Positions 13,933 through 51,377 of a stretch of 64,000 bases of DNA are shown here, piece after piece. Source of the stretch: a virus. The DNA lies in IMG/VR virus record IMGVR_UViG_3300015371_000008, positions 1 to 64,000 of that record, one strand, 5' to 3'. The position numbers were made by a program, and so were the translations under genes. The notes under the pieces are model-generated. The model was not told the origin of the DNA. It made no database searches and worked only from the letters and a program-made list of their open reading frames with translations. Position 1 is the stretch's first letter; each line of letters begins with the position of its first letter.

Positions 13933-13936
13933 TGAG

Positions 13937-14161: not shown

Positions 14162-14203
14162 CGGGGACGGTCGGCCGCCGGAGTCGAACCGGCATACCCA
14201 ATG

Positions 14204-14273: not shown

Positions 14274-14335
14274 AGGAGCAGACCCGGTTGCAGCCGGGCC
14301 CGCCAATTATCCGCCTGCTCTACGGACGGGCAAAT

Positions 14336-14764: not shown

Positions 14765-14849
14765 TCGGACTCCGACGTGCGGGCCCGCCCCGGATGGGCA
14801 AGCCGTCTACGTCTCACCCGCCGTGAACATCACATTCGCCTCCTTCGCG

Positions 14850-14922
14850 TAGGGGTGGCCGGATTTGAACCGGCATCATCCGCATTTTGAATGCGGCGCC
14901 TCTGCCGTTGGACTACACCCCC
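14850..14922 (-). tRNA. tRNA with CAA (Leu) anticodon, short variable loop
   Basis: Acceptor GGGGGTG/CACCCCT, stem CCGCA/TGCGG, loop TTCAAAA, variable loop ATGAT as in the AAG gene. Class I shape with a Leu anticodon is unusual in bacteria. Confidence 0.78.
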
Positions 14923-14923
14923 G

Positions 14924-14995
14924 TGCGCCGTCAGGGACTCGAACCCTGCTCTCTCGATTAAGAGTCGAGTGCATAACCATCCATGCTCACGGCGC
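14924..14995 (-). tRNA. tRNA-Lys(CTT)
   Basis: Perfect acceptor GCGCCGT/ACGGCGC, stem CTCGA/TCGAG, loop CTCTTAA. Confidence 0.92.
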
Positions 14996-15078
14996 TTTCC
15001 GTCCGGCCGGTTAGCGTCGGCCTGCCGGACGATCCCTGACCCGCCCGGGGGACGCCAATCCCGCCGGTGCAGTATCAG

Positions 15079-15098
15079 GGCACCCCACCCAAGTGGGG
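15079..15098. repeat. 8-bp spacer hairpin
   Basis: CACCCCAC/GTGGGGTG with a 4-nt loop just downstream of tRNA-Gly(TCC) on the minus strand. It lacks a T-run. Confidence 0.5.
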
Positions 15099-15103
15099 TG
15101 TAG

Positions 15104-15174
15104 AGCCGTACCGGAGAGTCGAACTCCGCTCCCCGCGTTGGAAGCGCGGGACATCGCCACAATGCTTGTACGGC
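15104..15174 (-). tRNA. tRNA-Gly(TCC)
   Basis: Perfect acceptor GCCGTAC/GTACGGC, stem CCGCG/CGCGG, loop CTTCCAA. Confidence 0.9.
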
Positions 15175-15177
15175 ATG

Positions 15178-15243
15178 GGGACCAGGCGGGGAATCGAACC
15201 CCGCTTTCCTAGGATTTCCGTGCCCTTTCCGGGGGCCTGGTCC
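15178..15243 (-). tRNA. tRNA-like element with unpaired anticodon arm
   Basis: Acceptor GGACCAG/CTGGTCC, D-arm GCCC/GGGC and T-arm GCGGGG/CCCCGC pair well. The 17-nt region where the anticodon arm should be contains CCTAGG and cannot pair as a stem. It overlaps the end of a possible 41-codon frame (MNRIGKGETPTD). Confidence 0.45.
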
Positions 15244-15409
15244 ACGGCGGGAAACGGCCCGGGTGCCCACGAGTGATCAGCTCGCAAACACTGACGGTAT
15301 CCGTAGGGGTTTCCCCCTTTCCGATCCGGTTCATCCCGCGTGCTCGACGACGCTCCGGATCCCCCTTCGCTGGCAACCCAGCTACTAAGTTCACCTGCAC
15401 CGTCGTGCG

Positions 15410-15481
15410 TGGCTCCCCAGAGAGTCGAACTCTGTCCTCTGGATCTTCAGTCCGGCGCTCATCCCCATGAGCTTGAGAGCC
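15410..15481 (-). tRNA. tRNA-Phe(GAA)
   Basis: Acceptor GGCTCTC/GGGAGCC, loop CTGAAGA, discriminator A; one mismatch in the anticodon stem. Confidence 0.87.
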
Positions 15482-15506
15482 TTTCGATCTCACCCGGCCG
15501 CAGAAG

Positions 15507-15650
15507 CTAGTGGTCGGGTGTCTTGTTCTCGTCGTCTATGACGCGTGTGGCCGCTGCCGCTGTGGCATCCTTCTTGGCCGCTATCCGCTTATTGATCTCT
15601 CTTATGTCTGCCTCGATCTCACGCAGTTCGCGTGCCTTTCGTCCGAACAT
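15507..15650 (-). CDS. small helical protein, 47 aa
   Basis: ATG follows AGGAGGCGAC. The peptide MFGRKARELREIEADIREIN continues KRIAAKKDATAAAATRVID and is one continuous charged helix, probably a coiled coil. It is not long enough to name. Confidence 0.75.
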   Translation of the reverse strand: MFGRKARELREIEADIREINKRIAAKKDATAAAATRVIDDENKTPDH

Positions 15651-15695
15651 GTCGCCTCCTGGCTAGGGGGGTGTCAACCTGGCGGGGAATTTTCG

Positions 15696-15914
15696 TTACG
15701 GTGCCTGGTCGAAGTATCGGCGGCCACGTTCGAACGCCGTCGTCCGATGTACGCCGTGCACGCCCTCCGTTGCCGCCAGGACGCGTCCCAGCGCCGTCTT
15801 GTAGGCGCTACGGGCGGTCGCCGCTCCAGGGAGTGGCCCGTCCGCGTTGTTGACTCTGGCGTCTTCACGGGCGATGTCAGCCAGCAGGTCTTCAACAAGC
15901 TTCTGTATGTCCAT
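15696..15914 (-). CDS. hypothetical protein, 72 aa
   Basis: Begins MDIQKLVEDLLADIARED after CAGGAGAACC. A helical N-terminus precedes a loop and AYKTALGRVLAATEGVHGV. The leader has the CGGG-AGAGCGA-CCCG hairpin at 15926-15940. Function unknown. Confidence 0.75.
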   Translation of the reverse strand: MDIQKLVEDLLADIAREDARVNNADGPLPGAATARSAYKTALGRVLAATEGVHGVHRTTAFERGRRYFDQAP

Positions 15915-15925
15915 GGTTCTCCTGT

Positions 15926-15940
15926 CGGGTCGCTCTCCCG
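15926..15940 (-). promoter_or_regulatory. 5' UTR hairpin, GAGCGA loop
   Basis: Stem CGGG/CCCG, loop AGAGCGA, before the 15696-15914 gene. Confidence 0.65.
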
Positions 15941-15981
15941 TTGGGTGGTGGGCTGCTGTACAGCGCCGCCCACCAGGCGCT

Positions 15982-16003
15982 CCCCCGCACGGCCGTGCGG
16001 GGG
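15982..16003. repeat. 22-bp perfect palindrome
   Basis: CCCCCGCACGG and CCGTGCGGGGG form an uninterrupted palindrome between tRNA-Arg(ACG) and a protein gene. No T-run. Confidence 0.65.
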
Positions 16004-16044
16004 CCGGTCACCCATACTCGATGACTTTCAGGTGATTCCGGACG

Positions 16045-16116
16045 TACCCGCGACAGGATTCGAACCTGCATCCTCGACGTTCGTAGCGTCGCGCTCATCC
16101 ATTGAGCTACACGGGC
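16045..16116 (-). tRNA. tRNA-Arg(ACG)
   Basis: Acceptor GCCCGTG/CGCGGGT, stem GACG/CGTC, loop CTACGAA. A34 would be deaminated to inosine by the host TadA enzyme. Confidence 0.9.
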
Positions 16117-16120
16117 ATGA

Positions 16121-16184
16121 TGCACGACAGGGCCAGGGACTTCCGTCGCAATGCGTGTTACCGCTCTTCCAGCCCTGCCGTGCA
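16121..16184. repeat. 13-bp inverted repeat (one mismatch) between tRNA and gene
   Basis: TGCACGACAGGGC and GCCCTGCCGTGCA are complementary except for one A.C. They bracket 38 nt of spacer. Confidence 0.55.
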
Positions 16185-16235
16185 CGATCTCCTGGCCGAC
16201 CACGCGGGCGTCTCACCCCGCGACCGGACCCCCAC

Positions 16236-16463
16236 CTAACCGGCCAGGTCGTTCTCACCGCCCAGTGCGGCGCATTCCGTGCACGGGCGCGTCCTCAGCG
16301 GACCAGGCCGCCAGAACAGGATCAGCGCCCCGAACGGCGGAATGATCGCCGCTATGGACGGGTTGCAGAACTCGTCCTCACCCTTGAAAATCGTTGGCTT
16401 CCACCAGCAGGTGAGCGTGGTGGGCGACCACCACATCAGGCGGCCGATGTTGAACTGCTTCAC
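16236..16463 (-). CDS. hypothetical protein with CxxC, 75 aa
   Basis: GTG start (VKQFNIGRLMWWSPTTLTC) after AAAGGCGA. It has a hydrophobic centre (SIAAIIPPFGALILFWRPG) that could be a membrane segment and a C-terminal CTECAALGG. Possibly a membrane-anchored redox or metal protein. Unassigned. Confidence 0.65.
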   Translation of the reverse strand: MKQFNIGRLMWWSPTTLTCWWKPTIFKGEDEFCNPSIAAIIPPFGALILFWRPGPLRTRPCTECAALGGENDLAG

Positions 16464-16490
16464 ACTCGCCTTTCGGATCAGCCGGGAAGG

Positions 16491-16664
16491 TCACTTCTTG
16501 TTGTTGATCTTTGCGCTACGGGCGACCGTCCTGGCCCGCTCGTAATGCGCATCCGACTCCGCCTTGTCGCCGTCCAGCTCCGCGATGAAACCCTTCGCGG
16601 CATGCTTGGCGACCTGGTCAAGCTGCTTGTCGGTCAACTTCCCATACTCCGCATTGCCCGCCAT
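16491..16664 (-). CDS. small helical protein, 57 aa
   Basis: Start MAGNAEYGKLTDKQLDQV is preceded by AGGAGGCGCCC. It is a charged helix ending SAKINNKK. Similar small Lys-rich helical proteins appear at 36664-36834 and 37794-37961. Leader contains the CCCGG-TTGAGCGAC-TCGGG hairpin. Confidence 0.75.
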   Translation of the reverse strand: MAGNAEYGKLTDKQLDQVAKHAAKGFIAELDGDKAESDAHYERARTVARSAKINNKK

Positions 16665-16683
16665 GGGCGCCTCCTGTGAGACT

Positions 16684-16702
16684 CCCGAGTCGCTCAACCG
16701 GG
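16684..16702 (-). promoter_or_regulatory. 5' UTR hairpin, GAGCGAC loop
   Basis: Stem CCCGG/TCGGG (one G-U pair) with loop TTGAGCGAC before the 16491-16664 gene. Confidence 0.72.
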
Positions 16703-16832
16703 AGAAGGTGCGGGTGCCGCTTCACTACGGCCTAGGCCACGACCGACCGGCTTTCTCCGCAACGCGTACGCTTCGCCGACCAGCCTCCCAAGGGCCAGAG
16801 CCCGGGGTAAGGGTTCCCGGGCGCTCCCGCCG

Positions 16833-16987
16833 TCCCTGGTGCTGGATTCGAACCAGCAACTTCCGCCCCCGTATTCGGGATTACCCGGCCAGGTCCCCGC
16901 CCTGCCCGACTAGTACGGGCTGAACGGTTTACCCCTGACAAACGGGCCCCGGCGGGACGATGCCTCTACCAATTGGGCTACCCAGGG
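16833..16987 (-). tRNA. interrupted tRNA, about 80-nt insertion
   Basis: A 5' half (CCCTGGG, D-arm GCC/GGC with AATTGGTAGA) and a 3' half (T-arm GCTGG-TTCGAAT-CCAGC, acceptor ACCAGGG) pair with each other though 155 nt apart end to end. CGTCC and GGGCG form the anticodon stem and enclose about 86 nt, against 7 normally. The insert has its own GCCCG/CGGGC hairpin. Anticodon not determinable. Whether it is spliced is unknown. Confidence 0.5.
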
Positions 16988-17020
16988 CTGGAGTGAGGCG
17001 TGATGTGCCTCACTCTCGCG

Positions 17021-17096
17021 TACCCGCAGCAGGATTCGAACCTGCACCATGCCCCACTCCGGAGGTGGGTGCCCTGTCCAGTTGGGCGATACGGGC
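17021..17096 (-). tRNA. tRNA-Arg(CCG), copy 1
   Basis: Acceptor GCCCGTA/TGCGGGT, stem CCCAC/GTGGG, loop CTCCGGA. Confidence 0.9.
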
Positions 17097-17100
17097 GTGC

Positions 17101-17148
17101 GTCAGATCGTGGACGCCTGTCGAGGGTCGAACCGGCTCACGATCTGAC
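17101..17148. repeat. 11-bp inverted repeat, paralog 1
   Basis: GTCAGATCGTG/CACGATCTGAC encloses a TTCGACC-containing loop. A paralogous stem at 17645-17748 differs by compensated changes. Confidence 0.65.
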
Positions 17149-17156
17149 TTGCGACG

Positions 17157-17357
17157 TCACGTGTCGTCGCCGTCCGAAGCGTACGGGTTCACCTGGTAGA
17201 GCTGCTCCCGAAGCTTGTCGTAGTCGAGAACGAGGGCCTCAGTTCGACCGTCACTGGGGATTCGCATGAGGACGGCATGCCCGTCCTCATCCCACCCCAA
17301 CTCGTAGGGGTTGCCGACTTTGTCATGACACGTTTTCCACGATCCACTGAACTTCAT
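17157..17357 (-). CDS. hypothetical protein, 66 aa
   Basis: ATG after AAAGGAGGGACAGC. MKFSGSWKTCHDKVGNPYELG, then a beta-like core (WDEDGHAVLMRIP) and a helix (YDKLREQLYQV). It sits inside one unit of a duplicated tRNA segment but has no counterpart in the other. Unknown function. Confidence 0.78.
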   Translation of the reverse strand: MKFSGSWKTCHDKVGNPYELGWDEDGHAVLMRIPSDGRTEALVLDYDKLREQLYQVNPYASDGDDT

Positions 17358-17381
17358 GCTGTCCCTCCTTTCTCTGTGACG

Positions 17382-17457
17382 TACCGCTGGCCGGAATTGA
17401 ACCGGCGACCTTCAGATTGAGAATCTGACGACCCGAACCAGCAGAGTCTTCAGCGGC
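17382..17457 (-). tRNA. tRNA-Glu(CTC), copy 2
   Basis: Acceptor GCCGCTG/CAGCGGT, stem TCAGA/TCTGA, loop TTCTCAA. Paralog of the Glu(TTC) gene at 17773. Confidence 0.82.
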
Positions 17458-17459
17458 CT

Positions 17460-17554
17460 TGTGACATCCGGACTCGAACGAGCCGGTACGTATGCCCACC
17501 GTACGAATTACCGCGCGGACCTTCGTACAGTGCGGTACCGCTGGGGAGTGCCAC
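17460..17554 (-). tRNA. tRNA-like element, 95 nt
   Basis: Acceptor GTGGCAC/ATGTCAC (6 of 7) and a TTCGAGT loop are present. The centre folds as GTACGAA/TTCGTAC and GTACG/CGTAC hairpins instead of ordinary D and anticodon arms. Confidence 0.35.
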
Positions 17555-17567
17555 GCCCCCCGGGCCG

Positions 17568-17640
17568 TGCTCGCAGCAGGATTCGAACCTGCGGTCTCCT
17601 CCTCCGGAGGGAGGCGCCTTGTCCTCTGGGCCATACGAGC
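17568..17640 (-). tRNA. tRNA-Arg(CCG), copy 2
   Basis: Acceptor GCTCGTA/TGCGAGC, stem CCTCC/GGAGG, loop CTCCGGA. Confidence 0.9.
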
Positions 17641-17644
17641 GTGC

Positions 17645-17748
17645 GTTAGATCATGGGCGCCTGCCGGGGAGTCGAACCCCTCTACGACTTGGATGCGCAT
17701 CCGCTGCCGCTTCGCCGGACCTGGAGTCGAACCGGATCATGATCTAAC
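17645..17748. repeat. 11-bp inverted repeat, paralog 2, with tRNA-like insert
   Basis: GTTAGATCATG/CATGATCTAAC: relative to 17101-17148 each arm changed at two positions and the partner changed with it. The loop is 82 nt here and contains two TTCGACT T-arm-like segments. Confidence 0.65.
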
Positions 17749-17772
17749 TTGCGACGTTGTACACCGTCGCCG

Positions 17773-17847
17773 TGCCGCTGACCGGAATCGAACCGGCGAC
17801 CTCCAGGGTGAAAGCCTGGCAACCCAACCAGCAGGGTCTTCAGCGGC
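17773..17847 (-). tRNA. tRNA-Glu(TTC), copy 2
   Basis: Perfect acceptor GCCGCTG/CAGCGGC, stem CCAGG/CCTGG, loop CTTTCAC. Confidence 0.85.
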
Positions 17848-17885
17848 ATTGCCCGATTGCGGCTCGGGGCGGCCGTCGGACAACG

Positions 17886-18035
17886 TCAACTCTTCCCCTT
17901 GGAAGCACGGGCCGCGAGGCGCCTTTCGTAGTTCTGTTTGGCCCTAGCGTTCGACTCCCTAAGGTCCTTCCTCATCTGAGCTACGCCCTCGATCAGCACG
18001 ACGACGGCGTCACCAACTGTCAACTTTCTGCGCAA
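17886..18035 (-). CDS. small basic protein, TTG start
   Basis: The extended ribosome site AGGAGGTGATC ends 4 nt before the TTG codon at 18035. The 49-residue product (RRKLTVGDAVVVLIEGVAQM) continues as a basic helix (RESNARAKQNYERRLAARASKGKS). Probably binds nucleic acid. Unnamed. Confidence 0.72.
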   Translation of the reverse strand: MRRKLTVGDAVVVLIEGVAQMRKDLRESNARAKQNYERRLAARASKGKS

Positions 18036-18202
18036 TATGATCACCTCCTCCTGGTCATATTCACGATCGGCCCTCGGTCCCACCCCTGCGCGGCGCGTGT
18101 ACACCACGCCGCACAGGCTCCCGAGGTCTCTCCGCCCCGTCCGCCGATCGCTAAGCCGCCTTCTGTCCGAGGGTGACGGCCCCCATACCCATGGGTGGAC
18201 AC

Positions 18203-18270
18203 TGTGCTGAGAGGGCCGCAGGTCCCCGCGTACGGCGTACCTGCGCTGCCAGGCCAAAGGACCCTCTCAC
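18203..18270. repeat. spacer inverted repeat
   Basis: TGAGAGGG/CCCTCTCA arms enclose a second stem GCAGGT/ACCTGC between tRNA-Asp and the 17886-18035 gene. Confidence 0.5.
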
Positions 18271-18272
18271 CG

Positions 18273-18343
18273 CGCCTGCGACGGGATTTGAACCCGCGCC
18301 CCCCACGCTGACAACGTGGTGCTCTGCCTTGAGCTACACAGGC
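18273..18343 (-). tRNA. tRNA-Asp(GTC)
   Basis: Acceptor GCCTGTG/CGCAGGC, discriminator G, stem CCACG/CGTGG, loop TTGTCAG. Confidence 0.92.
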
Positions 18344-18376
18344 TTGCCGTGCAGGCGGTCACCCGCACGGGGATGG

Positions 18377-18508
18377 TTACTCGTCGTGCCAGGAACCTGG
18401 CCCGCACGGGTTCTTCTTGCAGTCAGCGCACACGCCCGGATTGGCGATGTCGTTGACCATCATGTGAACGCCGCAACAGGTGCAGTCCGCAACGCCGGAT
18501 TCAGCCAT
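18377..18508 (-). CDS. zinc-ribbon-like protein, 43 aa
   Basis: ATG after AGGAGGACGAT. MAESGVADCTCCGVHMMVND with CTCC and later CADCKKNPC form two Cys pairs typical of a zinc ribbon. The leader has the AAAGGG-AGAGCGAC-CCCTTT hairpin. Confidence 0.78.
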   Translation of the reverse strand: MAESGVADCTCCGVHMMVNDIANPGVCADCKKNPCGPGSWHDE

Positions 18509-18522
18509 ATCGTCCTCCTGGT

Positions 18523-18542
18523 AAAGGGGTCGCTCTCCCTTT
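18523..18542 (-). promoter_or_regulatory. 5' UTR hairpin, GAGCGAC loop
   Basis: Six-pair stem AAAGGG/CCCTTT with loop AGAGCGAC ahead of the 18377-18508 gene. The A-T pairs contrast with the GC stems of other copies. Confidence 0.8.
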
Positions 18543-18775
18543 GCGATCACAGGCATTTTGCGGGGGAGTGGCCCTCCTGGCTGACGTCCGGACGTCTCCA
18601 GGTCAGTTCCCCCTCCGTGATGGGATTGCCTCGATTGAGGACGACCGGCCACCTCACCGGATCCCCGGCGGTTCCCGGCAGGCGACCGAAGCCGCCTACC
18701 GGACTGGAGACTCATCACGGGTGATCGGCGCGTTTTCCCGGGAACCACCCCGAAGATTGGCGCCGAACCACTGCG

Positions 18776-18847
18776 TAGCGACAGCAGGGTTCGAACCTGC
18801 GACCTTCTCGTTATGAGCGAGGCGCTCTACCACTGAGCTATGCCGCC
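18776..18847 (-). tRNA. tRNA-Met(CAT), elongator type
   Basis: Paired acceptor GGCGGCA/TGTCGCT, stem CTCG/CGAG, loop CTCATAA. An Ile2 tRNA (lysidine at C34) cannot be excluded from sequence. Confidence 0.85.
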
Positions 18848-18866
18848 AGAAATCATCGACAGACGT

Positions 18867-19076
18867 CTACGCCAGGTCATAGCCGCCACGCGGGTCGATA
18901 TCGTCAATAGCGATTCCTTCGGCAAGACACAGGGCTCCGCGAGCATCTGCCATCGACGTTCGCAGATCAGCCAACGCCACCGAGTCACCGCGCTCCTTCG
19001 CCAAGCGCATGTCACCTGCCAGACTGAGCATCAGGTACTTGGGGTGAAGTTCCAACCCAAGGGGGATCTTGGTCAC
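18867..19076 (-). CDS. hypothetical protein, 69 aa
   Basis: The GTG at 19076 is 5 nt after GGAGG and is preferred over an ATG at 19091 that contains the ribosome site. Sequence MTKIPLGLELHPKYLMLSLA, then helices ending DDIDPRGGYDLA. No recognised family. Confidence 0.72.
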   Translation of the reverse strand: MTKIPLGLELHPKYLMLSLAGDMRLAKERGDSVALADLRTSMADARGALCLAEGIAIDDIDPRGGYDLA

Positions 19077-19222
19077 ATGAACCTCCAGCATTGGGGGTGG
19101 TAAAAACGGACCCCCCGGCGAACGGGTTACCCCCGCCCTACGCGGCCCTCAGGGGCTCTCAGGTCCGCGATTTCGCATGGATCGGGGGATCCGGTCGGGA
19201 CGTCCGCGAGAACGTCCCTGCG

Positions 19223-19294
19223 TGCGGATGACAGGATTCGAACCTGCGCACTCCTCGCCCCAAACGAGGTGGGCTACCACTGCCCTACATCCAC
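19223..19294 (-). tRNA. tRNA-Pro(TGG)
   Basis: Acceptor GTGGATG/CATCCGC, stem CCTCG/CGAGG, loop TTTGGGG. Confidence 0.9.
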
Positions 19295-19300
19295 AGTGAC

Positions 19301-19367
19301 GGGTACTTCGGGGGCTGTTTCCTCTTGCGTCGGAGCGACCAACCACGGAGCGCTCCCCGAAGTACCC
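19301..19367. repeat. 13-bp inverted repeat bracketing spacer
   Basis: GGGTACTTCGGGG and CCCCGAAGTACCC are perfect complements 41 nt apart, between tRNA-Pro and a tRNA-like element. Confidence 0.65.
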
Positions 19368-19371
19368 GAAG

Positions 19372-19441
19372 TGGACCGGCGGGATCCGAGCCCCCGCATC
19401 CGCCCCCCGTCGGAGGCGAGTCTTCCTTAGACTGACGGCCC
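19372..19441 (-). tRNA. degenerate tRNA-like (GAC?)
   Basis: Acceptor GGGCCGT/CCGGTCC pairs at six positions; D-stem GTCT/AGAC and stem CGCCT/GGGCG with loop CCGACGG suggest anticodon GAC with C33. The T-loop is abnormal (GGCTCGGAT). Confidence 0.4.
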
Positions 19442-19481
19442 TGATGATGTTCCGATCATCTGCGGTGTGTGCGCAACACAG

Positions 19482-19554
19482 TGGACCTGAGAGGACTCGA
19501 ACCTCCCGCCTACGCCCTGCCGAGGCGTCGCTCTACCTGATGAGCTACAGGCCC
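19482..19554 (-). tRNA. tRNA-Ala(GGC) with C33
   Basis: Acceptor GGGCCTG/CAGGTCC, perfect stem ACGCC/GGCGT, loop TCGGCAG with C at position 33. Confidence 0.8.
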
Positions 19555-19559
19555 ATATG

Positions 19560-19623
19560 GGACGGGCGCCGGGTACAGCCGGTTCTCCCGGTGTGGCGAT
19601 CGGCTTCTGCTTCTCGCCCGTCC
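19560..19623. repeat. 9-bp inverted repeat spacer
   Basis: GGACGGGCG/CGCCCGTCC brackets 46 nt which itself contains CCGGG/CCCGG. It lies between tRNA-Ala and a structured spacer. Confidence 0.5.
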
Positions 19624-19735
19624 AGAGGGGACTTACCCGACCCCTCGGCGGTGGGACATATCCGGTCCCTGCGGAGGCAGCCTTTCCAGTGTTTTTGAAA
19701 GGAGATTCCGGTCGGCTGCCACCCACCTGTCTTCT
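19624..19735 (-). ncRNA. possible structured RNA spacer
   Basis: Minus strand shows nested helices: GGTGGG and GGCAGCC pair with CCCACC and GGCTGCC across an A-rich loop (CTTTCAAAAACACTGGAAAG). A separate hairpin GAGGGG/CCCCTC follows. No reading frame is supported. Confidence 0.4.
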
Positions 19736-19739
19736 CCTT

Positions 19740-19807
19740 GTGGACCGGCCAGATTCGAACTGGCGACTATCCCCGCTAAGGGTTGCCACGCCAACGGCTG
19801 CGGTCCT
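19740..19807 (-). tRNA. tRNA-like, weak anticodon arm (AGC?)
   Basis: T-arm GCCAG-TTCGAAT-CTGGC and acceptor AGGACCG/CGGTCCA (6 of 7) are good. D-stem GCC/GGC. The putative loop TTAGCGG has a poorly paired stem. Confidence 0.4.
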
Positions 19808-19884
19808 GGGGATCATCCACGAGGTGCTAGACCGAACGTCGGTGACTAGTACGACGCTCACGCTTGCCTCCCGGCTTCACCCTT

Positions 19885-19957
19885 GCGCACCGACGGGATT
19901 CGAACCCGCACCCTTCCCCTGGCCTTACGGGGTGCTCTCGCCATGAGCTGCGGCGCG
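19885..19957 (-). tRNA. tRNA-like with non-standard anticodon loop
   Basis: Acceptor CGCGCCG/CGGTGCG, D-arm GCTC/GAGC and T-arm GCGGG/CCCGT are canonical. The anticodon stem CCCC/GGGG closes a nine-base loop GTAAGGCCA, so the anticodon (AAG or AGG) is ambiguous. Confidence 0.5.
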
Positions 19958-20096
19958 TCCGACGGTCAGGTGTGCAGGTGGCCTGCCTGCGTCTGCCGCC
20001 GGAAGTTGGTGGGGCCCGCAGGTGAGCGCCGTGGCGCAGGAACCCCTTCGCGTCTGACTGTGCGCCAGCGCGTCGGGCACCGTATTGGACCCCGCG

Positions 20097-20166
20097 TGGA
20101 CCTGGAGAGATTCGAACTCGTCTTCCCGCACCTTGCAAGGGTGGGGCGTCCCCTGGACTCAAGCCC
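20097..20166 (-). tRNA. tRNA-Ala(TGC), short D-arm
   Basis: Acceptor GGGCTTG/CAGGTCC (with G-U pairs), loop CTTGCAA on CACC/GGTG, T-loop TTCGAAT. The D-loop is only about three bases. Confidence 0.65.
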
Positions 20167-20170
20167 GTGG

Positions 20171-20310
20171 GGGTGGATGCCGGTCGCCGGGTGCACGAAT
20201 CGTGCGCCGACCGGTAGCGGGAATCACTGACCATCTGGGGTTAGCTACCCGCCGGGCCATGGCGCCGCGTCATCGCGGAACCTGTTGGCTTCCGGCATCC
20301 ACCCGATCCC
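20171..20310. repeat. 13-bp inverted repeat around tRNA-like region
   Basis: GGGTGGATGCCGG and CCGGCATCCACCC are perfect complements about 115 nt apart. Inside are further hairpins (GCGCACG/CGTGCAC) and a TAGCTAA loop, suggesting a highly diverged tRNA-like element. Confidence 0.5.
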
Positions 20311-20648
20311 CTTGCCTCATTCGCGGCGCATGACAGTTACCGGCGGACCGGGTTGTGGGCTGTGAATGAGGTTCGGGAATTCTTTCATATGCCCCGGGAT
20401 GGCGCCCGGGGCGAAGTCGGCGTGTACGGGACCGTGGGTCGCCGGAAGCGAGTCGGCGCGGTGTTGCCGCGTTCGCTTGGCCCGTGAGGCGTTTGCTTGG
20501 CGACAGGTCCGGGCTAGGGTCGCATATCCGGCGGCCCACGGAGCCCGTGCACACCTTTCTTAGGTGTCTTCTTCCACTGTTGAGTTTTCAACGCGCCCCG
20601 GCTGGGGCTCCTACCCGTACACACCCCGTGGTGGCGGTGTGGGGTGCG
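20311..20648. other. about 340 bp leader region, hairpin rich
   Basis: No convincing protein gene. Minus strand carries hairpins ACACCT/AGGTGT, GTTGA-AAAC-TCAAC and CCCCGGG/CCCGGGG. A 23-codon frame (MKEFPNLIHSPQPGPPVTVM) has no ribosome site. It may be spacer RNA of the tRNA operon. Confidence 0.4.
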
Positions 20649-20720
20649 CACCGATGGCTGGATTCGAACCAGCAGTCCTCGCCTTAACAGGGCGGCGCTC
20701 TGCCATTGAGCTACATCGGT
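20649..20720 (-). tRNA. tRNA-Asn(GTT)
   Basis: Perfect acceptor ACCGATG/CATCGGT, stem CCGCC/GGCGA, loop CTGTTAA, discriminator G. First tRNA behind the promoter at 20959-20988. Confidence 0.92.
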
Positions 20721-28541: not shown

Positions 28542-29744
28542 TCACGCCCTGGCCTGCACGACGACGCGGTAGACGGCGGAGGAGGCGGAGTTGGCTGAGG
28601 TCAGGGAGATGTTGTTGGTGTCCACCACGATCTCGTCCATGTAGACGCGGGCGCCGCCGGTGTTCTCGTACACGAACACCTGGACGTCCTTGGTCCCCAG
28701 GTTGTGGGTGATATTGAGGGCGCTGCCGCCGGTCAGCGCGCCGACGTCGGCGGCGTAGGCGGTGACGGCGACCAGGTTGGTACGGGCGGCCGACGCGCTG
28801 GTGGCGTTGGTGCCGCCCTTGCTGAGGGGTACCAGGCCCACGGTGATGTCGTTCGAGTTCACCGTCAGGCTGCCGTCGGCGGCCACGACGTCGAACGTCG
28901 AACCGGTCAGGGTCAGACCGGCCCCGGCGACGTAGGTGGTGCCGGAGGTCGTGTAGACGGTCCACGTCTGCGTCCACGAGCCTGGCGAGCCTGACGGGGT
29001 GGCCGTCTGGATGTACTGGCCGCCCGCGTAGGTGCCCTCGGCTACGGCGACGAGGGTGCCGTCCAGGATCTCCCCGGTGGCGTCGGCGTCGGGAGCGCGG
29101 GTGGCGGCGGAGCCGGACCCGTTGAAGACGTAGATGCCGTTCTGGGTGCCGGTCGTCTGCCCGGCGGCCAGGAATCGGTCGCCGCTGGTCAGGGTGACGC
29201 CGTCCACGGTCGTGCCGGGGCCGGACAGGGTGACGTTGGATTGGGTGGCCACCCTGACGGGGTCCTTGACGCCCACGATCCCGGCCCGCGCATCGTCAAC
29301 GTACTGTTTGTTGGCGGCGTCGGTGCCGGTGCTGGGCGCCAACAGGTTGGTGATCTTCTGGGAGTTGAGGGATACCGACGCCGTCGGCGCCGCCATCTGG
29401 TCCAGGCGGGACGTACGAACCTGCGTGTCGAAGTCGCTGATCGTGGACGCGGTCTGAGTGCCGGTGTGGTTGGCGCGGGCCAGCGGGTCGGTGGCCAGTT
29501 TGGACAAGGCGATGGCGGCGCCGGAGGCGACCTTGGCGTTGGTGATCGTGTCGTCGGGGATGTCCCCGCCATCCATGCGGACCCAGGATGTGCCGTTGTA
29601 GTACTTGTCCACCGGCGGCGTCAGAGACGTGTCGGTCCACATCTGGCCGGTGACCGGGCTGCTCGGCGCAGTGCCGGACGCTTCCGGCGTCAGCCCCTTG
29701 ACCGGAATCTTGGACGTGTCGATCGGCGCCAAAAACTTCGGCAT
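28542..29744 (-). CDS. tail fibre / minor tail protein
   Basis: Start MPKFLAPIDTSKIPVKGL after AGGGGGCAGG. 400 residues of Thr/Ser/Gly-rich beta repeats. GQMWTDTSLTPPVDKYYNGT and NAKVASGAAIALSKLATDPL are hallmark phage-tail-fibre segments, with KITNLLAPSTGTDAANKQYVD as a trimerisation-type motif. The C-terminus HNLGTKDVQVFVYENTGG is a common tail-tip domain. Probably a trimeric host-binding fibre. Confidence 0.88.
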   Translation of the reverse strand: MPKFLAPIDTSKIPVKGLTPEASGTAPSSPVTGQMWTDTSLTPPVDKYYNGTSWVRMDGGDIPDDTITNAKVASGAAIALSKLATDPLARANHTGTQTASTISDFDTQVRTSRLDQMAAPTASVSLNSQKITNLLAPSTGTDAANKQYVDDARAGIVGVKDPVRVATQSNVTLSGPGTTVDGVTLTSGDRFLAAGQTTGTQNGIYVFNGSGSAATRAPDADATGEILDGTLVAVAEGTYAGGQYIQTATPSGSPGSWTQTWTVYTTSGTTYVAGAGLTLTGSTFDVVAADGSLTVNSNDITVGLVPLSKGGTNATSASAARTNLVAVTAYAADVGALTGGSALNITHNLGTKDVQVFVYENTGGARVYMDEIVVDTNNISLTSANSASSAVYRVVVQARA

Positions 29745-46101: not shown

Positions 46102-46156
46102 GTGTTGGTCGCTCTCCAACACTCCAAAGATACAGTCATTTAGCGTCTCGGGTCAA
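46102..46156 (-). promoter_or_regulatory. reference CTAAATG promoter plus GAGCGA hairpin
   Basis: TTGACC (46151-46156), 18 nt with CGCTAAATGACTG, TATCTT (46127-46132), then the seven-pair hairpin GTGTTGG-AGAGCGA-CCAACAC (46102-46122) and AGGAG. Confidence 0.9.
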
Positions 46157-46797
46157 GGGGTTTTGACGAGGTCGAAGAACTCGCTGCGCATCGCCACACT
46201 GTCCCGGAACGAGCCGCGCAGGTGCGACGTCACCATGGCCGCGCCGACCGCGCGGGCTCCCCGCAGCGTCATGCAGGAGTGCGCTGACCGGATCACGCAC
46301 GCCGCCCCCTCGGTGTCGAGGTTGCGGACGATCGCGTCCACGATCTGATCGCCGAGGCGTTCCTGCATCTGCGGCCGGGCCGCGTACTCCTGCACGATCC
46401 GGGCCAGCTTCGACAGGCCGACCACGCGGGCGCCCGGCGCTGGAACGTAGCCGACGGCGGCCGTGCCGGTGAAGGCGAGGAGGTGGTGTTCGCAGATTGA
46501 GGTGAACGCGATACCCGGCACGATGATCATGCCGGGGTTGTTCGACGGCGGCGGGAATGTCCGGGCGAAGTGCCGGTCCGGGTCGGCCCGAGTTCCGGCC
46601 GTCAGCTCGACCAGGGCGCGCACGAACCGGCCCGGCGTCTCCTCGGTGCCGTCGTCGTCGCACGGCATCCCCAGCGCCCGCAGCATCGCGCGGGCATGCA
46701 TGACGGCGACGTTGAAGTCCCCGGCCGCTTCCGGGTCCGTCTCGATGTAGCCGACCGGGTCCGGCAACCCGTACGTGTAGATCTCTTCTACGGCCAT
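46153..46797 (-). CDS. folE: GTP cyclohydrolase I
   Basis: 214 residues. The zinc site SICEHHLLAFTG gives C102, H104 and H105; with AHSCMTLRG (C175) and GLSKLARIV...QERLGDQI this is a complete FolE. It converts GTP to dihydroneopterin triphosphate, the first step towards 7-deazaguanine. Last gene of queC-queD-queE-folE order in transcription. TGATG overlap with queE. Confidence 0.94.
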   Translation of the reverse strand: MAVEEIYTYGLPDPVGYIETDPEAAGDFNVAVMHARAMLRALGMPCDDDGTEETPGRFVRALVELTAGTRADPDRHFARTFPPPSNNPGMIIVPGIAFTSICEHHLLAFTGTAAVGYVPAPGARVVGLSKLARIVQEYAARPQMQERLGDQIVDAIVRNLDTEGAACVIRSAHSCMTLRGARAVGAAMVTSHLRGSFRDSVAMRSEFFDLVKTP

Positions 46798-47534
46798 CAG
46801 CGCCCCCGCTCGTCTCCCCAGAGCAGCACATGCATGCGATGGGTGTAGTTGAACCGGTAGAACAGCGCCTGCTCTACGGTGTTCCTGGTGGTGACGGCCA
46901 GCACTTCGGCGCTCCGCCCCTCCGGCATGATCCAGACGCGTTCGGCCGGGATGTCCAGGTCAGTGACGTAGGCGGCGACCGCATCGACGTCAGAGGCGAT
47001 ACGGCATACCCACTTGAAGACGGCTTTGCCCGTGTCGCGGAACGCGGTCAGCACCTCGGGCCGGATCCGCTTCTCCTCGCTCATCCCGGCGTGCGCCAAC
47101 TTGGGGCTCACGTTGAACTGGCTTACGCAGGCAACCGTGTAGGCGTCGGGGGTGATGGTGCCGTTCGTCTCCACCTCCACCCGTTTGCCGAGCCGCTTCA
47201 GCCCGTCCAGCAGGCTGCGCCATCCCTCCTGCTGCTGGTGCAGTAGCGGTTCACCGCCGGTGATGACGACCATGTCGGCGCCGTGCTGCTCCACTTCGGC
47301 CAGGATCCCGGCGACCGGCGCCCGCGTCAGCTCCTCGCGCAGGTTGTAGCGGTCGGCGTTCCAGGTGTATTGGGTATCGCACCAGCCGCAGGACAGGTTG
47401 CAGCCGCCAGTGCGGACGAACGACGCCGTACGGCCCGCCGACGCTCCTTCGCCTTGCCAGGTTGGGCCGAAGCATTCGGCGATCACCAGGGATTCGTCTG
47501 TGCTGAACAGCTCAACCGGGGGGGTGTCGGTCAT
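46797..47534 (-). CDS. queE: 7-carboxy-7-deazaguanine synthase (radical SAM)
   Basis: Start MTDTPPVELFSTDESLVIAE five nt after GGGAG, ATGA overlap with queD. The radical-SAM cluster motif C45xxxC49xxC52 (GGCNLSCGWCDTQYTW) and ITGGEPLL are present, with the QueE-typical start GPTWQGEGASAGRTASFVR. It converts 6-carboxytetrahydropterin to CDG. 245 residues, full length. Confidence 0.94.
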   Translation of the reverse strand: MTDTPPVELFSTDESLVIAECFGPTWQGEGASAGRTASFVRTGGCNLSCGWCDTQYTWNADRYNLREELTRAPVAGILAEVEQHGADMVVITGGEPLLHQQQEGWRSLLDGLKRLGKRVEVETNGTITPDAYTVACVSQFNVSPKLAHAGMSEEKRIRPEVLTAFRDTGKAVFKWVCRIASDVDAVAAYVTDLDIPAERVWIMPEGRSAEVLAVTTRNTVEQALFYRFNYTHRMHVLLWGDERGR

Positions 47535-48037
47535 GCGCTCTCCCGTAGGGGTTGGGTGGCTCGGGACCACACCTCGCGCACGGTGACGCGGGGGGCGGGC
47601 GCCTCCCACTCTGCCGCGTTGACGTGGGTCTCCGTCACCACAACGCGCGCAATGTGGGTGCCGTCCGGCGGTTCCGGCGGCAGCCACATGACGGCCCGGT
47701 CGGCGATCATCTCCGCGACCGCCTCCACCGTCGGCCAGTCGGCGCCGGGCCAGTCGTAGCCGAACCGGAACACCTTGCAGCCGTGCTCCAGCAGGATCTT
47801 GGCCAGCGGATCCTGATTGCCGAGCATGGCGCCGTGGTCAAGGTTGGTGTCGATCCAGGCGCGCATGTGCGCCTTGAAGCCGCCGAACTCCACGATCGTG
47901 CCGTAGCCGTCCAGTTCGGGGGCGGACACCGTTACCGTGGCCCACCAGGAGTGGCCGTGCAGGTTGGTGCACTTGTCGCCGAGTAGCGGCAGCCGGTGGG
48001 CCGCTTCGAAATTATGACGAACGGAAATGGAGCGCAT
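47531..48037 (-). CDS. queD: 6-carboxytetrahydropterin synthase
   Basis: 168 residues. MRSISVRHNFEAAHRL and NLHGHSW give the three zinc histidines (H14, H27, H29), with C23 as the catalytic Cys. It converts dihydroneopterin triphosphate to CPH4. The start codon lies inside a perfect 14-bp hairpin (48029-48064). Confidence 0.93.
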   Translation of the reverse strand: MRSISVRHNFEAAHRLPLLGDKCTNLHGHSWWATVTVSAPELDGYGTIVEFGGFKAHMRAWIDTNLDHGAMLGNQDPLAKILLEHGCKVFRFGYDWPGADWPTVEAVAEMIADRAVMWLPPEPPDGTHIARVVVTETHVNAAEWEAPAPRVTVREVWSRATQPLRESA

Positions 48038-48064
48038 CCCCGGATCGTGGCGGGGATGCGCTCC
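48029..48064 (-). promoter_or_regulatory. 14-bp hairpin over the queD start codon
   Basis: GGAGCGCATCCCCG/CGGGGATGCGCTCC with an 8-nt loop. The ATG of queD is in the 3' arm and AAGGAG adjoins the 5' arm, so translation start should be occluded when folded. Confidence 0.75.
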
Positions 48065-48081
48065 TTGTGTCGCGGCCTGGG

Positions 48082-48201
48082 TCAGTCCAGGTTGCGGGAC
48101 AGCCAGCGGTCGTATTCCGTTTCGCGGGCTGCCTGCTCCGTCTTCTCTTCGCAGGCCGGGGTGCAGACGAAGTGGCCGCAGTCAGAGCACATACTGTTCA
48201 T
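48082..48201 (-). CDS. zinc-binding small protein, 39 aa
   Basis: MNSMCSDCGHFVCTPACEEK, then a charged helix. CSDC...CTPAC is a zinc-ribbon pattern. ATG after GGGAGAAATTC. Unrecognised. Confidence 0.74.
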   Translation of the reverse strand: MNSMCSDCGHFVCTPACEEKTEQAARETEYDRWLSRNLD

Positions 48202-48242
48202 GAATTTCTCCCTGGGGGGGTCGCAGGTTAGCGGTTGGGGGG

Positions 48243-48659
48243 TTAGGCGGCGCACTTGTCGGCGTCGCGGCAGAAGTGCTGGGCGGGGCCGCAGATGCGG
48301 GCGGCTTCGCGGATCGTCTTCGGGCTCCAGTAGCAGTCCCGCTCCACGTAGATCGGGACGGGCAGGCCGTACCTGGCCCGGCCCACCGTCTGCTCCAGGT
48401 CGCGCAGGTCGAAGTAGCACAGCTCGGCACCCTGCGGGTTACCGGCCAGTCGGACGTAGCCGAATACTTCGCCGGTGGTGTCGAAGTCGTCGGCGAACTC
48501 GGTCACCCACCAGTCGCCTGCGGCGCCGAAGTAGTGGACGTGGACGGTGGCGTCCAGCCCCTTGCCTTCCTGGGCGTAGAGCTTCGGGTATTTGGCGAGT
48601 TCGCGGGCGGTGGGGTAGAAGCGGTGGCCGCGAAGGCGCCGGTTCTTCTCGATGAACAT
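48243..48659 (-). CDS. DUF2958-like protein
   Basis: Start MFIEKNRRLRGHRFYPTARE after AGGAGAACAG. The segment GDWWVTEFADDFDTTGEVFG, ELCYFDLRDLEQTVG and YVERDCYWSPKTIREA matches the DUF2958 pattern (W-tEfd....fFG.v, Gy-sl-eLe, ierDl-w-p-tl). Widespread in mobile elements, function unknown. Confidence 0.75.
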   Translation of the reverse strand: MFIEKNRRLRGHRFYPTARELAKYPKLYAQEGKGLDATVHVHYFGAAGDWWVTEFADDFDTTGEVFGYVRLAGNPQGAELCYFDLRDLEQTVGRARYGLPVPIYVERDCYWSPKTIREAARICGPAQHFCRDADKCAA

Positions 48660-48717
48660 CTGTTCTCCTGTGCGTCGCTCAAGGTGGGGGCCCCGGATCC
48701 CGGGGCCCATCGGCCGG

Positions 48718-48852
48718 TCAGAACATGCATCCCAGGCGGGCGACGACGATCTCCCAGGCCCACTCGCGGAAGGCGGGGACGAAGATCAGGGCGGCGATGT
48801 GGGCGACGAACAGCGTGACGCCGATAACGAAGGGGAGGTCGCTGCGCTTCAT
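48718..48852 (-). CDS. small membrane protein, 44 aa
   Basis: MKRSDLPFVIGVTLFVAHIA, ALIFVPAFREWAWEIVVARL. One or two hydrophobic segments. Ribosome site AGGAGAAGATC, TGA at 48718. First gene behind a strong promoter/hairpin. Confidence 0.74.
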   Translation of the reverse strand: MKRSDLPFVIGVTLFVAHIAALIFVPAFREWAWEIVVARLGCMF

Positions 48853-48870
48853 GATCTTCTCCTGGGGGTG

Positions 48871-48924
48871 TCGGTCGCTCTTTCCGATACCCCAAAGATA
48901 CAGTCATTTAGCGCCTCAGGTCAA
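48871..48924 (-). promoter_or_regulatory. CTAAATG promoter plus GAGCGA hairpin
   Basis: TTGACC (48919-48924), 18 nt with CGCTAAATGACTG, TATCTT (48895-48900). Hairpin TCGG-AAAGAGCGA-CCGA (48871-48887). Confidence 0.85.
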
Positions 48925-49787
48925 GGGCCGTAGCCCATCGCGTTCATCACCGCGTACACCTCGCCCAGCCGGGCCGGACTCGTCGTCACGACGTTCCAGT
49001 GCAGCCGGTTCCAGAACTCGCGTGCCGGTTCGGTGAAGTCGATGCCGTCCGGATACGTCGCCTCCACCTGCCGCCGGTAGCCCCGGGCGGCGAACGCCAC
49101 ATACCGGTACAGGCAGGCCCAGCAGCGTCCGCAGTGGCCCGGCATGTCGGCGAAGCAGGAGCGGGCGGCCAAGGCGTCCTCCAGCCAGCCCCGGGCGGCC
49201 CACCATGACACGCAGTCGGCCTTGGACATGCCGATCAGTGGGGAGGACAGGCGGAAGTCGAAGCCGTTCGCGGTGGCCATGTGCTGCATGGTGGACGCCC
49301 ACCGGAACGACTTGTCGCCGCCGACGATCGGTGTCTCCAGGTAGTTGCCGCCCAGGTGGCCGAACCAGACTTCGCCCCACCAGCCGTGAGCGTGCGCCCA
49401 TTCCAGCAGCCGCCACACGATGATCGAATTGCGGCCGATCTGGAAGTCTCCGACGGCGGTCCAGTCGTCGCCCACCTCCAGCATGTGCAGGCGGCCCTCA
49501 GTCAGCCGTAGCGCGGCTTCCCGGTCGCGGCGGGCGTACGGCACGCCGGTGGCCGCCATGACCGCCTCTACGGGCAATCCAGCGGCGCGGGCCATCCGGT
49601 AGCAGGTGGAGGAGTCCAGGCCGCCGGACACCGGGATGATGATCCGGAAACGCGGGTCGTCACGGTCGGCGTGCGGCAGCATCTGCCGCCGGAACGCGGT
49701 GTCGTCGCGACCCAGCCGCCACACCGCGCCCGGGTCGCCGCCGTCCAGCGCCGTCATCTCTTCGACTGCGTCGCCGGGCAGGTTCAC
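48921..49787 (-). CDS. queC: 7-cyano-7-deazaguanine synthase
   Basis: GTG seven nt after GGAGG, GTGA overlap with dpdA. The PP-loop SGGLDS (residues 54-59, IIPVSGGLDSSTCY) adenylates the substrate. The C-terminal SCFADMPGHCGRCWACLYR is the QueC zinc motif. It converts CDG to preQ0. At 288 residues it is about 50 longer than typical, mainly at the N-terminus. Confidence 0.9.
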   Translation of the reverse strand: MNLPGDAVEEMTALDGGDPGAVWRLGRDDTAFRRQMLPHADRDDPRFRIIIPVSGGLDSSTCYRMARAAGLPVEAVMAATGVPYARRDREAALRLTEGRLHMLEVGDDWTAVGDFQIGRNSIIVWRLLEWAHAHGWWGEVWFGHLGGNYLETPIVGGDKSFRWASTMQHMATANGFDFRLSSPLIGMSKADCVSWWAARGWLEDALAARSCFADMPGHCGRCWACLYRYVAFAARGYRRQVEATYPDGIDFTEPAREFWNRLHWNVVTTSPARLGEVYAVMNAMGYGP

Positions 49788-50731
49788 GCTGCCGCCTCCT
49801 GTCGTGTGCGCTGCACGACCAGGTCCACGATCAGGTCGAAGTCGCCCTCCGATCCAACCGCGAGGTAGATCTTGGGGCCGTTGAAGTGGATTCCGGGCGG
49901 TGTCGGTACGTAACGGTGGACGGCCAGGTGGTCGGCGTAGTTCATCCACGACAACAGTGCGGAGGAGGAGGTCCAGTCGCGTTCGGCCCGGCCCAGCTCC
50001 TTGCCGCGCATGCCGACGCGGGCGAAGCCAGGGTTGGCCAGAGCGACGGGATCGCCGCCATAGGCGCGCACCAGACTGGCGGAGGGGCGTCTAACTCCCC
50101 TTTTGATGTCGTCGGGGTGGCGCACGCACACCCATCGACCTCGCCCGCTATCGAAAAGGGTGATGGAGCCGTTGCGACTGCCCTGGGACCAGAAGGATGA
50201 GTCCACGCTGTAGAAGGGCAGCAGATCGGGGTAGGGCGGCCGGGTCATGCCGAGTCCGTGCAGGACGGCGCCGTGCGCTCGTGCGATCTTGTGGGCGCGG
50301 ATGAGCCACTGCATCATCGCCTTGCCCCGGGCGTTGACGGCGACGCCGCCGCCGAGGGCGACGAACGGATGCGTCGCGCACCACCGTTCCAGTTCCGACC
50401 ATGGCGAGCCGACGTGGAAGATCGGGATGATGTAGGTGGCGTCGCCCACCATCTGCTCCAGTTCCAGGGTGTTGCGGCCGGACGCGGCCGGATCCCCGAT
50501 GACGTCCAGTGTCATGGCGCAGTTGACGTACGGGCCGTATACCTGCAACCAGGTTGCATACCCCTTCAGCGAGATCGTCTTGCCTGTGGTGTAGGCGGTG
50601 AACGCCCCCGAGTCGGCCATGAAATCCACCTCCACGCCCCGTTCCCGGGCCCGGCGGACCAGCTTGCCCAGGTCCGTCTTGGCGAAGTAGGCGAACGAGC
50701 CGAGGATGGTGACGCGGCGTTCAGGCTGCAC
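49784..50731 (-). CDS. dpdA: DpdA-like DNA-guanine transglycosylase
   Basis: 315 residues from GTG. FMADSGAFTAYTTG carries the TGT-type Asp (D40) of DSGGF, and HGLGMTRP...FYSVDSSFW supplies the second catalytic-type Asp (D177). No C-terminal zinc motif of tRNA enzymes is seen, as expected for phage DpdA. It would exchange guanine in DNA for preQ0 or a derivative. Coupled to queC. Confidence 0.85.
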   Translation of the reverse strand: MQPERRVTILGSFAYFAKTDLGKLVRRARERGVEVDFMADSGAFTAYTTGKTISLKGYATWLQVYGPYVNCAMTLDVIGDPAASGRNTLELEQMVGDATYIIPIFHVGSPWSELERWCATHPFVALGGGVAVNARGKAMMQWLIRAHKIARAHGAVLHGLGMTRPPYPDLLPFYSVDSSFWSQGSRNGSITLFDSGRGRWVCVRHPDDIKRGVRRPSASLVRAYGGDPVALANPGFARVGMRGKELGRAERDWTSSSALLSWMNYADHLAVHRYVPTPPGIHFNGPKIYLAVGSEGDFDLIVDLVVQRTRQEAAA

Positions 50732-51377
50732 TGTCGTGCGCCCACTCGATCAGCCGAATGAACCGGGCGGAGTCGTCCAGTTCCCCGTACGGCTCGGTCA
50801 AGTCCATGAAGAAGTTGCGGATGTGCGGCGGCACCTTGAACCGCAGCAGCGGCCACAGGTCGGAGTCGTCGGGGTCGCCGTATTCCTTCTCCAGGTCGTC
50901 CAGGGTGGGCGGCTCACCCAGGGATGCGATCATGTCGTCCAGGTCGGTTTGGGAGTATCCGGCGAGTTCGAGCAGGTCGGGGTTGTCGTCGGCGATCTCG
51001 TCCAGGACTTCGACCAGGAGACGGTCGTCCCAGCCGCCCAGTTCCGACAGCCGGTTGTCGGCCACCAGGTACGCCTCGGCTTCGGCGTCGGAGCGGGATG
51101 CCCAGCCGCGCACGATCGGGACCAGCCAGTCGCCGTCGGCTTCGGTGACGCCTTCGGGCGGGGTGGCGCCGTCGGCGCGCATGGAGTCCAGGGCGGCCAG
51201 GCGGCCGTGCCCGGCGACGAGGCGGCCGGTGCGTTCGTCGAGGAGTCCGGCCATGGTGACGCCGAATTTTTCGATCGACGCGCGGATGGCGCTGGCTTGG
51301 TGCGCTTTCGGATTGCGGGTCGCGCGGGTGATGCCGGACAGGGGCAGGTGGTCGATGCGGCGGGAGGTGGTCGTCAC
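50721..51377 (-). CDS. ParB/Srx-like protein beside dpdA
   Basis: 218 residues. RNPKAHQASAIRASIEKFGV and LVAGHGRLAALDSMR match the ParB N-terminal domain (GHxR box, here GHGR), followed by PIVRGWASRSDAEAEAYLVADN, typical of phage ParB-like nucleases. CTP/ATP-dependent nuclease or DNA-binding activity is inferred. It overlaps dpdA by 11 nt, and such proteins often lie near DNA-modification genes. Confidence 0.85.
   Translation of the reverse strand: MTTTSRRIDHLPLSGITRATRNPKAHQASAIRASIEKFGVTMAGLLDERTGRLVAGHGRLAALDSMRADGATPPEGVTEADGDWLVPIVRGWASRSDAEAEAYLVADNRLSELGGWDDRLLVEVLDEIADDNPDLLELAGYSQTDLDDMIASLGEPPTLDDLEKEYGDPDDSDLWPLLRFKVPPHIRNFFMDLTEPYGELDDSARFIRLIEWAHDSAA

Follow-up and report, generated by a model that had tools for sequence, protein, structure and literature searches.

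A predicted phage cassette for 7-deazaguanine DNA modification with a non-canonical QueC-family protein

Introduction

Phages that encode FolE, QueD, QueE, QueC and DpdA carry the 7-deazaguanine dPreQ0 (Hutinet 2019, PMC6884629). This base accounts for 28% of G in Rosebush and 32% of G in CAjan. In CAjan lacking dpdA there is no dPreQ0, and modified DNA resists some restriction enzymes (Hutinet 2019, PMC6884629). In the same study, the Gat-QueC of phage 9g did not restore tRNA queuosine in an E. coli K-12 delta-queC strain. A ParB-superfamily protein, DpdB, accompanies DpdA (PMC6392294). For the Escherichia coli QueC enzyme, residues Y35, R99, Y131 and Y189 are each needed for preQ0, and the substitutions Y35A, Y131A and Y189A abolish preQ0 formation (Libby et al. 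2026, PMC13329287). The fold is shared with Cap9 of type IV CBASS and QatC of Qat, both of them protein deazaguanylases. The Cap9 pocket holds the deazaguanine with a stacking Tyr and with an Asp, equivalent to D133 of QueC, that recognises the Watson-Crick edge; in QatC, two Thr take these places (PMC13279940).

Here, we describe a cassette of this kind in a 64,000-nucleotide stretch of viral DNA (the window; positions 1 to 64,000 of IMG/VR record IMGVR_UViG_3300015371_000008). The record is 89,220 bp long with 66% G+C, and its genes are almost all on the minus strand. The cassette is of a known kind; what sets it apart is its non-canonical QueC-family PP-loop enzyme, which we call QueC'. The type of 7-deazaguanine in a phage is predicted with gene-content rules. 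Counting every QueC-family gene as QueC, with no check of the active site, yields a dPreQ0 prediction for an entire set of phages whose enzyme is missing key residues.

Results

The QueC' gene occupies positions 48921-49787 of the minus strand and encodes 288 amino acids. Transcription of the cassette runs in the order ParB-like gene, dpdA, QueC', three small open reading frames (ORFs), queD, queE and folE. QueC' matches PF06508 with 41 bits, compared to a cut-off of 22. With the NCBIfam equivalog TIGR00364 the score was 30 bits of the 150.3 required, and so below the cut-off. The SGGxDS ATP loop is kept (SGGLDSS), as are the four zinc Cys of the C...CxxCxxC pattern (C211, C219, C222 and C225). 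Equivalents of R99, N100, D133 and K165 (E. coli QueC numbering) are also present.

Conversely, other canonical features are lost. The stretch aligned with YxQxHxxE is TGVPYARRD, where TGVPY stands for YGQRH and Y35 is replaced by Thr. QIGRN occupies the VPxRN position; the R and N are present, VP is lost, and Ile lies at P97. In place of YPDC is GGDK(S), with Tyr changed to Gly, Cys changed to Lys and the Asp kept. The SCY motif is SCF, so that Y189 is Phe, in the window protein and in two relatives, L020 and L021; most other QueC' proteins keep the Tyr. Thus, the window residues at Y35, R99, Y131 and Y189 are T, R, G and F, and three of the four essential residues are gone. As positive controls, we inspected QueC of Arbiter (species Rosebush), which has YGQRHVVE, VPNRN, YPDC and SCY, and QueC of CAjan, which has YGQRHNIE, VPNRN and YPDC.

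The initial annotation called the gene set complete and, seeing no QueF and no obvious amidotransferase, predicted dPreQ0 or a close derivative. The modification cassette itself is well supported, on gene content, order, motifs and relatives; the step to dPreQ0 is not safe, given T, G and F at Y35, Y131 and Y189. It is possible, if on balance doubtful, that the preQ0 pathway is ordinary and complete, with a fast-evolving QueC that still makes preQ0 and DNA that holds dPreQ0 as in Rosebush and CAjan. The operon order and the type of DpdA are the same as in phages with a canonical QueC. The fold of QueC' is also best matched by Cap9 and QueC. Each of the three alanine substitutions that abolish preQ0 formation by the E. 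coli enzyme (PMC13329287) falls at a position altered in the window, and the QueC proteins of the Rosebush species and CAjan keep YxQxHxxE, VPxRN and YPDC; both observations argue against an ordinary enzyme.

The structure model of QueC' (mean pLDDT 78) was closest to Cap9 (9nto_B, TM score 0.80 over Cap9, E 2.8e-7), followed by the QueC structures 2pg3 and 3bl5. With respect to the Cap9 pocket, the Asp is kept and the stacking Tyr is lost. Searching 50,697 phage records by tblastn gave no relative of the window QueC' at E 1e-5 (best 9e-4). This is unlike DpdA, QueE and FolE, which have many relatives in phage records. The zinc-motif pattern of the window-type QueC' had no match in 84,980 genomes.

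Proteins similar to QueC' were found in IMG/VR and phage records. Dereplication left 35 QueC' sequences and a comparison set of 23 that are canonical or Gat-QueC. The sets were partly picked by similarity to seed proteins; hence, the counts describe these groups and not a sample of all phages. A single branch (support 100/99) splits the 35 from the 23. Residue 35 is Tyr in 1/35 QueC' and in 23/23 canonical rows, and residue 131 is Tyr or Phe in none of the 35 and, again, in all 23. At position 134, Lys is found in 29/35 QueC' and Cys in none. Every sequence of either group (35/35 and 23/23) keeps R99, N100, D133, K165 and the zinc Cys. Tyr replaces H39 in 30/35 QueC'; this residue might substitute for the lost stacking Y131, which would permit the enzyme to make preQ0 as usual.

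In the tree, the window QueC' is tentatively placed with three IMG/VR proteins inside the larger phage-borne QueC' group. Its best BLAST matches are L020 (87 bits) and L021 (80 bits), compared to 55.5 bits for the best canonical sequence. Like these two proteins, it has GGDKS, SCF and extensions at both the N-terminus and the C-terminus.

We also examined the gene neighbourhoods. Of the 35 loci, 33 have DpdA no more than 6-7 kb away, 23 have QueE, 20 have QueD and 20 have FolE. Another QueC is near QueC' in a single locus, L049, where it is a Gat-QueC. Such figures would be expected of an enzyme that takes over the QueC step. The two loci with no DpdA are NCTB and L061, and in the latter the gene sits at the end of the locus. 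No tailoring enzyme is common to the 35 loci. The exceptions are L020 and L021, where methyltransferase-type genes, differing from one another, directly follow QueC' (5738-6361 and 3627-4277, respectively). These hint at tailoring in those two phages, not in general. In L049 (IMGVR 3300005613_003639, 370-5170), DpdA, Gat-QueC, two more radical-SAM-like proteins and a separate QueC' share one cluster, possibly a multi-step 7-deazaguanine pathway.

These neighbourhoods bear on a somewhat unlikely alternative, in which the amine that QueC' couples to activated 7-carboxy-7-deazaguanine (CDG) is not ammonia, or the enzyme halts at the plain amide. The DNA would then hold dADG or a new N-substituted 7-amido-7-deazaguanine. 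Cap9, the best solved match of the QueC' model, does such chemistry with a protein N-terminus (PMC13279940). Loss of substrate-side residues, with the ATP loop, zinc Cys and Asp kept, fits this alternative, as do the terminal extensions of the window subgroup and the methyltransferase genes of L020 and L021. That L049 carries QueC' besides Gat-QueC argues for a non-redundant role. Conversely, the absence of a tailoring gene common to QueC' loci counts against this alternative and is in keeping with ordinary preQ0, and no methyltransferase lies beside the window QueC'. It is less likely still that QueC' forms an enzyme family of its own in phages, acting on CDG with a non-ammonia amine or making an earlier unassigned product, and that the DNA base is one not yet described.

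An improbable alternative is that the target of QueC' is a protein, as for QatC and Cap9, and that DpdA inserts CDG itself or preQ0 made by the host. QatC has also lost YxQxHxxE and YPDC and has terminal extensions (PMC13329287, PMC13279940). In addition, some phages with DpdA, QueD, QueE and FolE have no QueC (Cracklewink/Bipper). Against this, QueC' holds the QueC position in the cassette and is found near DpdA in nearly all loci, no conserved partner protein lies beside it, and it keeps D133, which is Thr in QatC. A known defence QueC was rejected as the identity of QueC'; PADLOC gave QueC alone, with a weak score of 25.8 bits.

A search of 84,980 species genomes for the type of QueC' found in Bacteroides phage BS162P1 gave two Bacteroidales contigs with a QueC' cassette, from Phocaeicola plebeius DSM 17135 and a Tannerellaceae metagenome-assembled genome. 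The former is the type strain of a cultured gut commensal; its 288-kb contig encodes ParB, DpdA, QueC', QueD, QueE and FolE at 3756-7099. We also considered DpdL, which is reportedly a CDG decarboxylase. Identity of QueC' with DpdL is neither supported nor excluded; Cellulophaga phage phiST, reportedly one of the phages of Cui et al. 2023, has FolE, QueE and QueD and no QueC' match in positions 1-60,000 of 79,114. Near these three phiST genes is a short ORF (46841-47200) that weakly resembles QueD (13 bits) and may be another PTPS-like gene.

Previously, the ten largest clusters of the QueC family, covering 98.5% of sequences, were analysed (PMC13329287). By motifs and context, QueC' matches none of the clusters described there. 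Thus, QueC' is not described in the literature that we examined. The work of Cui et al. 2023 on phage 7-deazaguanines is outside that scope, so an earlier description may exist.

We next turn to the remaining genes of the cassette, all on the minus strand. FolE (GTP cyclohydrolase I, 214 amino acids, 46153-46797) matches PF01227 (E 1.1e-53) and keeps CEHH and CMTLRG. QueE (7-carboxy-7-deazaguanine synthase, 245 amino acids, 46797-47534) matches phrog_2076 (E 1.8e-61) and keeps the CNLSCGWC cluster motif and GGEP. QueD (6-carboxytetrahydropterin synthase, 168 amino acids, 47531-48037) matches PF01242 (E 3e-23) and keeps FEAAH, CTNLHGH, LDH and TET. By the established pathway, FolE, QueD and QueE together would convert GTP to CDG. 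DpdA, a predicted DNA-guanine transglycosylase of 315 amino acids (49784-50731), matches phrog_887 (E 3.7e-39). Family matches place all five genes of the initial annotation, folE, queE, queD, a QueC-family gene and dpdA, at the positions given there (46153-50731). The ParB-like gene said to adjoin dpdA is also present (50721-51377; 218 amino acids); its product matches phrog_620 (E 7.7e-28), has a GHGR motif and is a DpdB-like companion of DpdA.

The genes had been called largely coupled. This is so within two tight blocks, where the ParB-like gene and dpdA overlap by 11 bp, dpdA and QueC' by 4 bp, queD and queE by 4 bp, and queE and folE by 1 bp. Conversely, QueC' and queD are 883 bp apart, and the gap holds the three small ORFs. 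The first encodes 44 amino acids (48718-48852; gene call with a codon score of 22 and a ribosome-binding site). The second encodes a hypothetical protein of 138 amino acids (48243-48659) that matches phrog_5203, of unknown function (E 1e-4); it has a DUF2958 match under the cut-off and just two weak relatives among phage records. The third (48082-48201; gene call) encodes 39 amino acids and is Cys-rich. No structured RNA was found in the cassette using Rfam.

The nearest annotated relative of DpdA is that of Arthrobacter phage Sonali (38% identity). Both catalytic aspartates are kept, in DSGA and VDSS, which align with the aspartates of E. coli tRNA transglycosylase (TGT). We took H158, in HGLG, as the equivalent of H196 in 9g DpdA, which was outside the alignment; this conserved His is absent from DpdA2. 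The CxCxxC zinc motif of TGT is missing and there is no PF01702 match. In the tree, DpdA groups with the Sonali and Rinkes proteins (support 99/98), far from E. coli TGT. The DpdA profile matches the solved DNA-guanine transglycosylase 7ui4 weakly (E 0.011). In Sonali, Finch, Cracklewink, StAugustine and Rinkes, too, dpdA comes after a ParB-like gene; such a neighbour is the normal arrangement. From these sequence features, DpdA is predicted to act on DNA. Two side observations concern dpdA elsewhere. Sonali has a second, short DpdA-like annotated gene (4996-5613) about 2.4 kb upstream of its main cassette, and in Microbacterium phage Megan two tandem DpdA genes adjoin a Gat-QueC fusion (670-2543).

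The window also contains 37 tRNA genes (7272-20720, minus strand) with small ORFs interspersed; no tmRNA was found. The tRNA genes include the GUN-anticodon set for Tyr, His, Asp and Asn, so the cassette could in principle modify tRNA, for example these 37 phage tRNAs, and not DNA. We consider this very improbable. No member of the TGT family was matched in the record (89,220 bp); furthermore, DpdA lacks the TGT zinc motif, groups with phage DpdA proteins and has a ParB/DpdB-like partner. Hence, modification of the phage tRNAs was rejected, on the lack of a TGT match and the wrong type of DpdA.

QueF, a class II glutamine amidotransferase, a YhhQ-type transporter and a second QueC were not found in the record, which is probably incomplete. 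It lacks a terminal repeat, and a scan of the 30 larger proteins gave no terminase, portal or DNA polymerase; hence, the record is probably a fragment and gene absences are weak evidence. The earlier statement that QueF and an obvious amidotransferase are missing is thus borne out within a fragmentary record alone; to that extent, it favours ordinary preQ0. A head-decoration-like protein (window 28542-29744) is related to those of Myrna-type mycobacteriophages, of about 160 kb. Together with the few structural genes in the record, this suggests a larger phage. Further along the record are genes for a ParA-like partition protein (71858-72700) and a 921-amino acid protein with weak FtsK/SpoIIIE similarity (84049-86814), which suggest plasmid-like maintenance genes.

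Discussion

Gene content, operon order, catalytic motifs and relatives make this a well-supported candidate for a 7-deazaguanine DNA-modification cassette of the ordinary kind. We favour, as the probable reading, a phage operon that works as follows. FolE, QueD and QueE would make CDG from GTP. QueC' would use ATP for activation of the CDG carboxylate, turning CDG into the base supplied to DpdA. Aided by the ParB/DpdB-like protein, DpdA would swap part of the DNA guanines for the QueC' product, and the modified DNA would be shielded from host restriction. We infer that QueC' acts on CDG and that the DNA is protected. Because the Asp is kept and the Tyr is lost, we propose that CDG and ATP remain the substrates of QueC' and that its pocket is altered. 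The exact base is not readable from the genes because QueC' lacks key residues of the textbook enzyme. It may be a nitrile (dPreQ0), an amide (dADG) or another amide; the sequence cannot decide.

Several observations weigh against the favoured reading. CDG binding by QueC' is not assured, since Y35 and Y131 are lost, and Y189 too in the window protein. The window QueC' has a very long branch in the tree. It scores 43.9 bits with a QueC' profile built without it, compared to 57.6 bits with the canonical profile, and an approximately unbiased (AU) test does not reject its grouping with canonical QueC (p 0.13). Whatever its placement in the tree, the residue losses hold. DpdA was modelled poorly (mean pLDDT 69), and a fold search with the model returned only generic barrels; we set this search aside given the low confidence of the model. 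Finally, another QueC, QueF or an amidotransferase may lie beyond the fragmentary record.

The presence of the QueC' group in cultivable hosts (Bacteroides phage BS162P1 and Phocaeicola plebeius DSM 17135) makes its product directly measurable.

Among the closest described systems are those of Hutinet group 2 (Rosebush and CAjan). Like those phages, the window has members of all five gene families and a DpdA with the conserved His and Asp, and neither QueF nor an amidotransferase was found. Four genes of the group 2 set are clear; the QueC is non-canonical and the amidotransferase absence is seen in a fragmentary record. Unlike group 2, the window QueC' lacks the substrate motifs kept in the Rosebush species and CAjan, and three small ORFs interrupt the operon. 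The operon order is shared with actinobacteriophages known for 7-deazaguanine DNA and is that of mycobacteriophages, as in Arbiter, of the Rosebush species (DpdA-QueC-QueD-QueE-FolE). Sonali (MK411746) has the order ParB-DpdA-QueC-QueD-QueE-FolE, as does Finch. Conversely, the Sonali QueC is canonical (YGQRH, VPNRN, YPDC and SCY) and its gene is directly between dpdA and queD.

Like QueC' of BS162P1 and its relatives, the window protein has lost Y35 and Y131, has Lys at C134, as most of them do, keeps R99, D133 and the zinc Cys, and is encoded next to dpdA. It is far more diverged, with long terminal extensions, Phe at Y189 and Ile at P97. With Cap9 and QatC it shares the QueC fold, ATP loop and zinc Cys. 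The terminal extensions resemble QatC, and the best fold match is Cap9. Conversely, Cap9 keeps a YxDC motif, and QatC has Thr and Thr where the window QueC' has Gly and Asp. Neither a QatB nor a CD-NTase partner substrate gene accompanies QueC' in the window; its neighbours are dpdA, queD, queE, folE and the small ORFs. QueC' would be a further case of a repurposed QueC fold, beside QatC and Cap9.

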